Source of the DNA: a virus
Reading direction: 5' to 3' (one strand)
Length of the DNA stretch: 32,587 nucleotides
Virus record (IMG/VR): IMGVR_UViG_3300006805_000089
Span: 1-32,587 of that record
This document shows positions 2 to 6,651 of the stretch, one piece after another. The translations under genes and the position numbers were made by a program. How positions within the stretch are numbered: the first letter of the stretch is position 1; every line of letters starts with the position of its first letter. A model generated the notes under the pieces. That model did no database searches and was not told the DNA's origin. It saw only the letters and a list, made by a program, of their open reading frames with translations.

Positions 2-652
2 AGACAGCGGCTCTGGTGGGTTGGAGAAAGGCTGGGCAACGCCGACAACGCACGACGCGAAGGGGACGTTTTACACTCGCTATGGGGCGGACGGGATAGA
101 GGCGGGCCGGATGGCGGCGCTTCAGGATCAGGCCCAGCTCTCGACATGGCCGACGCCGGCGACCCGCGACTACAAGGGGGAGAGTGGATCTGGGAGGCAA
201 GAACGCAAGGATCACCCAGCGGACACCGTGCCGAATGCGGCGGTCTTAGCGGGCTGGCCGACGCCCATGACGCAGACGGGGGCGGGGAACTCAGACTTTA
301 CGCGCAAGACGGAAGCGATGTGCGGTCGGGACATAACGGGACACGGCCTGACCTTGTTGAAGGGCTGGCCGACACCAGCGGCATCGGACGGAGAACGAGC
401 GGGGTCTGGCATAACGGCGGGGATGACGGGAACCAGCCTGACGCAGATGTCAAAGATGATAGGCCCAGCCCGACTAACGGTCACTGGCGAGATGCTGATT
501 GGCTCTTCTGCCGCGATGGAAAGTGGCGGCCAGTTGAACCCGGCACATCCCCGTTGGCTCATGGGTCTGCCGCCAGAGTGGGACGACTGCGCGGTTACGG
601 CAATGCAATCGTTGCCCAAGCAGCGCAAGCCTTTATCGAAAGCGTGATGTGA
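2..652 (+). CDS. Phage cytosine-5 DNA methyltransferase, C-terminal part (5' end outside window), reading frame 2
   Basis: The frame is open from the first complete codon to TGA at 650-652, so the gene begins upstream. The last 50 residues carry the ending I know from phage C5 methyltransferases: a [15 protein letters not shown] stretch, then PLAHG, then [12 protein letters not shown], which matches motif X (GN followed by hydrophobic residues) that helps close the SAM-binding site. The earlier part is low complexity with repeated GLADA-like segments, as in the variable target-recognition region of these enzymes. The catalytic PCQ and ENV motifs would lie upstream. Such enzymes methylate phage DNA against host restriction. 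The same DNA is also fully open in frame 3, which has stronger G/C at third codon positions by eye, so which frame is translated is unresolved. Confidence 0.55.
3..647 (+). CDS. WPTP-repeat protein overlapping the methyltransferase C-terminus (frame 3, 5' end outside window)
   Basis: This frame is open from the window edge to TGA at 645-647. It encodes four spaced copies of a GWPTP-like motif ([44 protein letters not shown]). It ends with a conserved-looking segment containing [16 protein letters not shown], resembling motif IX (LQGFPxxW) of C5 methyltransferases, and a basic tail. I know proteins of this exact style from phage genomes, usually annotated as methyltransferase-associated or hypothetical. 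Third codon positions are G/C-rich by eye, more than in frame 2. It could be the C-terminus of the methylase itself, a separate overlapping gene, or the target of a frameshift from the frame-2 product. No function beyond this association can be stated. Confidence 0.55.
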
Positions 653-4091: not shown

Positions 4092-4796
4092 ATGACGACC
4101 TCTTTGACCGCCTACCTCGACAACAACGCCCTGCCCGAGATCTCGGACGATCAGATGATCGCGGCGCTGGCCGACACGACGGACGAGCAGCGCACCGGAA
4201 CCGGCGCGAATGTCCAGTATCTCGCGTTCTCCGGCAAGACCGGATCCTACGCTCTGGGGCGCGACCGCACCGACCTGACCGACGACGTCCTATTCATCCT
4301 CGAGCCGAAGTCGGTGATCGAGGGTTGGATCTGCTGGAAGGCGTCCAAGCCGATCGACCGCGTCGAATGGTCGATCTATAACAAGCGCGCCGCCGTGCAG
4401 GACGTCGACCTGCCCGACCACGCGCCCTACAACACGAAGACGGGCGAAGGCTGGCATCGTTCGCTAGGCTTCGGCTGCATCTCGACCGACGGCGCGGCGA
4501 CGAACGTCAAGTTTGTCACGAACTCGGTCTCGGGCCGGAACGCGATCACCGATCTCTTGAACGAGATCGTCCGTCGCATGGGATCCGGAGCCCCAGCTCT
4601 GCCGATCTTTGGCTTCGGTGCTGAGAGCTTTACCGCGCAAGGCGCGCAGAACTTCAAGCCGAAGTTTGGGGTCTCGGGCTGGGCGACGCGCGACGAGGTC
4701 GAAGCGTTCTTCGCTGGGAACGCCTCGCTCGACGAGCTGGTCTATGGGGATGCCGCTCCGGCCCCGTCCTACACCAAGCCGAAGGCTCGCCGCTAA
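4092..4796 (+). CDS. Conserved replication-module protein, possible ssDNA-binding or annealing role
   Basis: A 234-aa soluble protein. Visible segments include YLAFSGKTGSYALGRD, LEPKSVIEGWICWK, VEWSIYN, GWHRSLGFGC and a C-terminal basic tail KPKARR. I do not recognise a Pfam family. Proteins of this look lie beside Cas4-like nucleases and family A polymerases in other phages, where ssDNA-binding or annealing proteins are expected, so that role is a contextual guess. I chose the ATG at 4092 because GGAG is six bases upstream; GTG at 4071 and ATG at 4080 are alternatives. It lacks the acidic C-terminal tip of classical SSBs, which argues against a canonical SSB. A GC hairpin follows directly after the stop. 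Confidence 0.75.
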   Translation: MTTSLTAYLDNNALPEISDDQMIAALADTTDEQRTGTGANVQYLAFSGKTGSYALGRDRTDLTDDVLFILEPKSVIEGWICWKASKPIDRVEWSIYNKRAAVQDVDLPDHAPYNTKTGEGWHRSLGFGCISTDGAATNVKFVTNSVSGRNAITDLLNEIVRRMGSGAPALPIFGFGAESFTAQGAQNFKPKFGVSGWATRDEVEAFFAGNASLDELVYGDAAPAPSYTKPKARR

Positions 4797-4803
4797 ACCC
4801 CTT

Positions 4804-4826
4804 GGGAGCGCGTCCTACGCGCTCCC
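4804..4826 (+). terminator. 9-bp GC hairpin between the accessory gene and DNA polymerase
   Basis: GGGAGCGCG at 4804-4812 pairs perfectly with CGCGCTCCC at 4818-4826, loop TCCTA. TGCCCTCAT follows rather than a U-tract, so it may be a partial terminator, attenuator or mRNA-stabilising hairpin just upstream of the polymerase start. Confidence 0.55.
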
Positions 4827-4848
4827 TGCCCTCATAAGGATCTGCCGC

Positions 4849-6651
4849 ATGGAATACGACCTCATAACGACCAGAGCCGCCCTGTCGCGCGTGCTGCAAA
4901 AGTGCCACGCCGCAACCGCGCTCGACTTCGAGACGACGTCCCTGCGGCCCGTAGACGGGCGCGTGCGGCTCGCCCAGCTCCGCAACGCCGAGGTGCGCTG
5001 CATCATCGACTTCGATCAGATCCCGGGAGGCTTTGCCGCCTGCGCGGATCTCTTCGTCCCTCCCGGCCCTTGGGTCGTCTTCAATTCAGGCTTCGAGATG
5101 CGCTGGTTCCTTGCTGCCGGTGCGACGCCCGAGATCATCGACGTCGGCCACCTGCGGCGCGCTCGCATGGGAGGCGGTCGCTTCTCCTTGGCCGACATGG
5201 TCTTATGGGATCTCGAGCAGAAGCTCGCCAAGGACGAGCAGGTCTCGAACTGGGGCGCGCCGGAGCTCTCCGCGTCGCAGCTCGACTACGCGATCCGCGA
5301 CGCCGACGTCACCTTCGAGCTCTGGCAATACTGGAAAGAGAAGACGACCTCCGCCCACGACCGCGCCGCCCAGCTCCTCGATGACATGACGCTCGGCGTG
5401 ATCGAGATGGAAGAGGCGGGGATGCTGCTCGACCGGCGCGCCCATAAGGAGCTCGTGCGCCGCTGGGAGGAGATCCGCGACGAGCTCGCGACGCAGGTCC
5501 GCGCGCTGATCCCGGAGACCGAGGTCGCGAACCTAAACTCGAACCCGCAATTCTCCGATTTTTTCGCGCGGATCTTTCCCGATCGCGTGCTCTCCGTCTG
5601 GCCCAAGACCGAGAAGACGAACCAGCTCGAGATCTCGGGAGAGGCGCTGGCAAAAATGGCCGGGCTCTTCCCCGGGACGCCGGTCGAGGCTGCGCTCGAT
5701 GCTCTGTCGCGCTACCGGCGGATCCAGAAATATATCTCGAGCTTCGGGGTCACCGTGATCGACACCGCTGCGCGGTCACCGGACGGTCGGGTCCGCGCGC
5801 GCTTCAACGTCGGCGCGGCGCGCACCTGTCGCTTCTCGAGCTCCGGCCCGAACCTGCAACAAGTGCCGCGCGACAAGAAGCTCTTCGACGACGACGAGGA
5901 TCAAACGCGCGTCCGCAAGAGCTTCATCGCGCCCGCCGGATCTCTGCTCGTCTCCTACGACTATTCGGCGATCGAGATGCGCGTCCTCGCGCTCCTGTCC
6001 GGTGACGACCAGCTCCTCGAGGATGTCGTCTTCGGTGACGTGCACTCCGAGGTCGCTGCGGTGATCGCTGGGCACAAGATCGACAAGAAGACCCCAGAGG
6101 GGAAAACTGCGCGCAGCGCGGCGAAGGGGGTCTCCTTCGGCATCATTTATGGATCCGCCGCCGCCGGGCTCTCGATCACGATGCGGACGCCGATCGAGAA
6201 GGCGCAGACCTACATCGACTTCTGGGCGAACCGCTACAAGCGCGCCTTCGCCTATCGCTTCGAGATGCAAGAACAAGCGCAAGCGACCGGCTACCTCACC
6301 ATGTGCGACGGCGGGACGATCTATCTGGGCAAGCGAAACGCGGATCTCCCCAAGTGCGCGAACTATCCCGTCCAGCGCGCCGCGCTCTCGGTCATGGCGC
6401 GCGCGATCACTCGGCACAAGGCGACGCTCGATCGGCTGCGCGGATCAGGGGAGCTCGATCCGACGCGCACCTTGCTGCTCGCCACGATCCACGACGCCCT
6501 GATTGACGAGGCGCTCGAGACGCAAGCCGAGACCGTCAAGCGCGCGATGGCCGAGGACATGACCGCCGCCTACGTCGACTTCTTCCCCGGCGCGCCGACC
6601 GAGAACTTGATCGAAGGCGGGGTCGGACCGAACTGGGCGGATCTCGGCTAA
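4849..6651 (+). CDS. polA: Family A (Pol I-like) DNA polymerase with 3'-5' exonuclease domain
   Basis: The 600-aa protein has an N-terminal proofreading domain: exo I DFET (26-29), exo II NSGFEMRW, exo III YAIRDADVTF. The polymerase domain has motif A SYDYSAIEMR (catalytic D371), motif B RSAAKGVSFGIIYG (R422, K426, F430, Y434) and motif C IHDAL (H548, D549). There is no 5'-3' exonuclease domain, as usual for phage replicative polymerases. Motif C reads HDA where most family members have HDE. The O-helix position equivalent to E. coli 762 is phenylalanine, a state associated in marine-phage surveys with virulent lifestyles. The ATG follows AAGGATCTGCCGC. It is the likely replicative polymerase, working with the helicase and nuclease upstream. 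Confidence 0.95.
   Translation: MEYDLITTRAALSRVLQKCHAATALDFETTSLRPVDGRVRLAQLRNAEVRCIIDFDQIPGGFAACADLFVPPGPWVVFNSGFEMRWFLAAGATPEIIDVGHLRRARMGGGRFSLADMVLWDLEQKLAKDEQVSNWGAPELSASQLDYAIRDADVTFELWQYWKEKTTSAHDRAAQLLDDMTLGVIEMEEAGMLLDRRAHKELVRRWEEIRDELATQVRALIPETEVANLNSNPQFSDFFARIFPDRVLSVWPKTEKTNQLEISGEALAKMAGLFPGTPVEAALDALSRYRRIQKYISSFGVTVIDTAARSPDGRVRARFNVGAARTCRFSSSGPNLQQVPRDKKLFDDDEDQTRVRKSFIAPAGSLLVSYDYSAIEMRVLALLSGDDQLLEDVVFGDVHSEVAAVIAGHKIDKKTPEGKTARSAAKGVSFGIIYGSAAAGLSITMRTPIEKAQTYIDFWANRYKRAFAYRFEMQEQAQATGYLTMCDGGTIYLGKRNADLPKCANYPVQRAALSVMARAITRHKATLDRLRGSGELDPTRTLLLATIHDALIDEALETQAETVKRAMAEDMTAAYVDFFPGAPTENLIEGGVGPNWADLG

Follow-up and report, generated by a model that had tools for sequence, protein, structure and literature searches.

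The question raised at this locus is why one stretch of phage DNA is open in two overlapping reading frames, both of which look like the end of a methyltransferase gene. The window analysed here is the entire IMG/VR virus record IMGVR_UViG_3300006805_000089 (32,587 bases), and this record starts inside the methyltransferase gene. On its plus strand, frame 2 is open at positions 2–652 (216 aa) and frame 3 at positions 3–647 (214 aa), just as the original prediction had read from the letters alone, and frame 1 has 14 stops in the same stretch. Three explanations had been left standing, namely dual coding, a frameshift from an N-terminal methylase into either end, and a decayed gene with one real frame. 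The search of both proteins against phage protein families, which had been suggested as a check, assigned frame 2 to phrog_363 (E 4.5e-15) and frame 3 to phrog_31772 (E 2.7e-33) and phrog_1008 (E 4.5e-27). Frame 2, which is the motif-bearing frame in complete relatives, encodes the C-terminal end of the catalytic (alpha) chain of a phage C5-cytosine methyltransferase; its motifs I–VIII belong to the 5' part of the gene, which is off the contig, so the catalytic motifs are absent from the window because the record begins within the gene. Motif X, already recognised at the end of this frame, was confirmed at 584–619 by its sequence and by hhalign of the frame-0 alignment against single-frame phage methyltransferases, which matches here only. 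Frame 3 is the C-terminal part of a nested +1-frame protein, the proposed specificity subunit (beta), whose start codon and N-terminus are also off the contig and whose identity to the +1 proteins of complete relatives is up to 50%.

The WPTP-type repeats and the motif-IX-like segment noticed in frame 3 proved to be four W(A/P)TP modules, starting at 33, 147, 255 and 366, followed by a motif IX. According to the module parse, target-recognition-like module 1 lies at 33–143 (aligned by hhalign to the target recognition domain (TRD) region of single-frame methyltransferases as well), module 2 at 147–251, module 3 at 255–362 (the +1 protein of the close relative L006 has the same module type), and module 4 together with the conserved GPARLTxTGEMLxGSSAxMESGGQ segment preceding motif IX at 366–533. 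Motif IX itself, identified at 534–581 by hhalign with the single-frame enzymes, has its in-frame equivalent RLNPAFPEWMMGWPTGW in Mycobacterium phage IrishSherpFalk, and its end in frame 3 and the start of motif X in frame 2 are three bases apart. The DNA stretch 461–640 is about 78–86% identical to phage records from many hosts (194 records in total). The stronger third-position G/C seen by eye in frame 3 also holds, with the G+C peak of 72.6% at frame-3 third positions, which are the first positions of frame 2. When the frame-2 protein was kept and its codons were shuffled synonymously, frame 3 of the window had 0 stops versus 2.26 expected (P=0.045), and when the frame-3 protein was kept, frame 2 had 0 stops versus 4.65 expected (P=0.0018). 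The double openness in the window alone is thus modestly unlikely, and therefore the case rests on the relatives.

In total, 163 methyltransferase homologues were gathered, nearly all of them by catalytic-frame patterns only. A single frame carries PCQPF, GEQVAS, GAPHIRxR and RLRGYGNAI in four complete phage genes and in an alignment of 53 other relatives; it corresponds to window frame 2, which answers the earlier question of which frame joins the catalytic motifs; in the complete relatives the equivalent of window frame 3 is +1 relative to the catalytic frame. The outer chain of the relatives, in the same frame as window frame 2, matches PF00145 (E 2.4e-12 and 3.6e-19). In all 163 homologues the longest open run in the +1 frame spans 89% or more of the sequence between QCHFF and the stop codon, compared with about half in synonymous shuffles, and the +2 frame has stops at the expected number. 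The same +1 openness was observed in K1 coliphages (GC 0.56) and a T4-like Krischvirus (GC 0.45), and also in a Leyra-like family of Paenibacillus and uncultured phages (GC 0.41–0.62), where one member (L386) has 391 open +1 codons at GC 0.42 versus 128 expected. The nested +1 protein has about 220–390 aa in the relatives. Moreover, a separate search for the +1 family phrog_1008 in 299 Pseudomonadota genomes found it at 21 places, 21/21 of which are inside a C5 methyltransferase gene and one base out of phase with it.

Selection on codons across the homologues, proposed earlier as another check, points in the same direction. Synonymous diversity of the catalytic frame is 0.81–0.92 of expectation before the overlap, falls to 0.24–0.54 in conserved overlapped blocks and is 0.79 at the end; the 40 N-terminal codons of the +1 frame present little synonymous constraint (0.84–0.88). 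In the variable region, identity is 0.46–0.54 in the +1 frame versus 0.36–0.38 in frame 0, and the usual third-position excess of change is reversed, which shows that the nested protein is under stronger purifying selection there than the catalytic frame. Furthermore, the nested frame has its own start. The nested ATG precedes the Q codon of QCHFF by 32 bases in 119 of the 163 homologues, and other homologues use an ATG at –20. An invariant upstream Arg is encoded by the rare codon AGG in 39% of cases, compared with 0–15% at other conserved Arg columns, and this AGG gives an AGGAG Shine-Dalgarno sequence about 8 bases ahead of the ATG. The anti-Shine-Dalgarno energy at the nested start is –5.98 versus a background of –2.53 in the family of the window, and –5.82 versus –2.45, a typical Shine-Dalgarno, in the Leyra-like family, and +1 stops near the nested start occur in 8/154 sequences versus 71.5 expected. 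In the coliphage K1ind3 record the nested gene is annotated with its start 88 bases into the methylase. In phage N15 gene 58 (L167), a single +1 stop falls within the N-terminal portion of the nested frame, which is otherwise open almost to its end; this makes a later start or an N-terminal loss likely in this case. Frame 3 is a real, conserved gene fully nested in the methyltransferase gene.

These data bear directly on the simpler explanations. A frame 3 free of stops by chance, owing to the high G+C, with frame 2 as the sole real one, would be compatible with the window alone, which gives only P=0.045, but the openness in 163/163 homologues, with genes of GC 0.45–0.55 among them, and the reduced synonymous variation leave next to no room for it, and the synonymous shuffles together with the low-GC relatives rule it out. 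A decayed gene with one real frame is just as remote: nothing speaks for decay beyond the truncation at the contig edge, and each frame reaches its own stop without a break, matches conserved families to its end and is universally conserved, by which this part of the original prediction is refuted. The nested family yielded none of the homologues with one open frame that had been named as what would speak against dual coding; where phage enzymes use a single frame, it is the catalytic one that carries the modules and motif IX. One polypeptide made by programmed frameshifting, with a shift to +1 past motif VIII to read the modules and motif IX and a return to frame 2 for motif X, would give the canonical order I–VIII, TRD, IX, X. 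It is nevertheless very improbable, as two shifts would be needed, frame 0 is open and conserved across the whole stretch, and openness and selection in the +1 frame, which starts at a ribosome-binding site of its own, extend well upstream of any shift site. No conserved shift site is seen, a slippery heptamer lying between motifs IX and X in 2/154 sequences, and the second start is an independent one. The suggested frameshift from an N-terminal methylase also finds no support, since PCQ, GEQV, GAPHxRxR and motif X are all in the frame-2 frame of the complete relatives, and the other frame has its own Shine-Dalgarno sequence and start codon, which argues for two proteins. Dual coding is thus the part of the original interpretation that stands, with strong support from the openness, selection and start of the +1 frame, and frameshift and decay do not; the two frames as complementary parts of an enzyme had not been foreseen.

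This complementarity appears when the two frames are compared with the single-frame methyltransferases of mycobacteriophages, in which LLPTP modules, LNPAFPEWMMGWPTGW (motif IX) and GNGVVPQQA (motif X) are all located in the catalytic frame. In hhalign, the nested family aligned with these enzymes at a probability of 92.6 (E 4.7e-7; repeats can inflate this score) over template positions 71–233, namely the TRD modules and motif IX, and the outer-frame family aligned only with template positions 235–263, namely motif X. Profile homology thus shows the parts of one enzyme split between frames, with the TRD modules and motif IX in the nested frame and motif X in the outer one. The module parse also revealed that the modules recur in differing order among different proteins, as expected for exchangeable specificity cassettes. 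The +1 protein has a conserved N-terminal helix and hairpin; no relative of it was found in sequence searches of Pfam, NCBIfam and PDB, and Foldseek with its model (pLDDT 60) gave no significant match. AlphaFold2 predicted a confident catalytic core (1–167) and a motif-X helix in the outer chain, with no TRD fold, and its confidence was low for the TRD/module region in both frames, so structure cannot decide which chain bears the TRD.

Among the relatives, fused, split and nested enzymes make up a natural series. The fused form is represented by IrishSherpFalk gp71 and the other mycobacteriophage enzymes, with all parts in one frame; they are like the nested form in that the LLPTP modules, LNPxFxEWMMGxPxGW and motif X are homologous by profile, and differ in that nearly all of them are without a conserved +1 frame, the +1 stops of most single-frame enzymes (L286–L311) being about as frequent as expected by chance. 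Although single-frame, IrishSherpFalk and a few of its close relatives (L282–L288) have 124–139 open +1 codons from PCQ; in IrishSherpFalk this stretch holds the hairpin segment and one LLPTP module, and it is possibly a relic of the nested form. In the split form, the catalytic chain of Gordonia phage Float294 ends after motif VIII and its +1 chain consists of modules, IX and X. Similarly, the catalytic chain of L329 (1998–3177) stops after motif VIII, and a +1 chain that starts within the catalytic gene with MVEQLNLF has the clamp motif discussed below, four modules, IX and X in one frame; L329 also has a second C5 methyltransferase-like ORF at 4158–5159. The nested form, with motif X in the outer chain, is that of the window and its relatives.

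Among characterized enzymes, M.EcoHK31I (YGGCCR) has its small gene nested in the large gene in another frame, and a small gene nested with its own start is what we found in the relatives of the window. PMC3404938 describes a large polypeptide of M.EcoHK31I with motifs I–VIII and X and a small one with motif IX, and its reference 18 states in the title that two proteins are needed. As far as descriptions can be compared, this is a heterodimeric C5 methyltransferase with the same motif split, of which the window itself shows IX and X only. The differences are that the genes described here belong to phages and prophages, that the nested chain also bears repeated TRD-like modules, and that some relatives have a clamp motif. 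The same source places the predicted TRD of M.EcoHK31I on the large subunit (PMC3404938), so a TRD on the nested chain sets the phage enzymes apart from M.EcoHK31I and does not count as confirmation. No restriction partner was seen among the adjoining genes looked at. For M.AquI (CYCGRG), this source gives motifs I–VIII on one chain, IX on the other and X on the small chain (PMC3404938). Motif IX on a chain separate from I–VIII is common to both, and Float294 and L329 fit the M.AquI layout, whereas the window has motif X in frame 2 and does not.

Taken together, we consider it probable, at about 0.85, that the locus encodes a two-subunit methyltransferase of the M.EcoHK31I kind, in which a modular specificity subunit is nested in the catalytic gene. 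The outer chain, with motifs I–VIII, a poorly conserved stretch and then motif X, is the catalytic one and would transfer the methyl group; the nested chain holds, by profile, the parts which the outer chain lacks, the W/LPTP modules and motif IX, and would set the sequence to be methylated. With M.EcoHK31I as precedent, the two chains most likely assemble into a single active C5 methyltransferase, which the phage probably uses to shield its own DNA from restriction by the host. Phages would alter the specificity by exchanging modules with one another, always in multiples of three bases. Alternatively, the +1 protein could be a genuine overlapping gene with a separate role, for example an anti-restriction or clamp-associated factor, its TRD and motif IX likeness being a relic. 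The conserved N-terminal helix and hairpin without a Pfam or PDB relative and the N-terminal clamp-like motif in part of the family are in keeping with such a role, but it is rather unlikely, given that the +1 protein is obligately paired with a methyltransferase, that the two chains are exactly complementary at motifs IX and X, and that the second chain in L329 and Float294 must supply TRD, IX and X.

The clamp-like motif concerns the beginning of the nested chain, an end which the window itself is without. QL(S/D)LF is the bacterial sliding-clamp-binding consensus (PMC9690074). In the nested proteins of the Leyra-like family (L312–L391), QLTLF or a close variant is located 1–11 codons past the start in 38 of 52 non-redundant members, where synonymous shuffles give 1.2; in the family of the window a clamp-like motif is found in 20/154 sequences versus 0.7 expected, including the close relatives L006, L008, L013, L017 and L092. 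Because the Leyra-like motif is seen at shifted positions too, it is more than an echo of the TIDLI motif of the outer chain. The nested chain is thus predicted from its sequence to begin with a sliding-clamp-binding motif, clearly so only in part of the family, and QLTLF on it would tether the enzyme to newly replicated DNA. In DNMT1, a clamp motif brings a cytosine methyltransferase to new DNA via PCNA (PMC9690074); this is an analogy only, as DNMT1 is an unrelated protein and the clamp motif here is predicted and lies outside the window. A partial literature search returned no report of a phage methyltransferase with a clamp motif. We put forward tentatively, at somewhat less than even odds, that phages of a large class encode replication-coupled methyltransferases, whose nested +1-frame subunit is both a swappable specificity cassette and a clamp tether and whose dual-coded modules recombine. 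If so, phage DNA would be methylated during replication, and specificity would be reprogrammed by swapping modules that are open in two frames.

The nested arrangement, known from essentially one bacterial enzyme, is standard across many phages. A partial search of the literature on dual-coded phage methyltransferases found nothing direct and M.EcoHK31I as the sole precedent, via a secondary source; the arrangement is far more widespread than the literature found suggests, and the enzyme kind is known but rarely described. What is apparently new is the phage-wide spread, the TRD modules in the nested subunit and the N-terminal clamp motif in the sister family. For DNA phages, this is a large example, with very strong support, of one gene fully nested in another on the same strand, and the overlapping products of the two appear as two halves of one enzyme. 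The fused, split and nested series offers material for studying how overlapping genes originate, and specificity swapping in phage methyltransferases and the possible clamp tether become directly testable.

The nested arrangement also explains why phrog_363, phrog_1008 and phrog_31772 overlap mutually and all have the label 'DNA methyltransferase': they represent overlapping frames, and the label on the +1 families was probably transferred. The same +1 nested ORF is annotated in phage records as 'Mte8-like protein' in K1ind3 and 'g62 internal gene' in Lily, for which we found no description of function, conservation or mechanism, nor the origin of the name Mte8 in the literature. Annotation often retains one of the two frames and sometimes the nested one alone, as in Cylindrospermopsis phage Cr-LKS3 (L169, 2132–2869), where the nested +1 frame is annotated as 'methyltransferase' and the catalytic frame is unannotated. 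Directly 3' of the methyltransferase gene, the window has an SNF2/helicase-like gene at 751–2094 with a GC3 of 85%, and a helicase is also the next gene in the K1 coliphages (L166 and L168). Opposite this helicase gene, an antisense ORF of 489 codons extends over 595–2064 on the minus strand, and it is probably a by-product of the high GC3 of the helicase gene.
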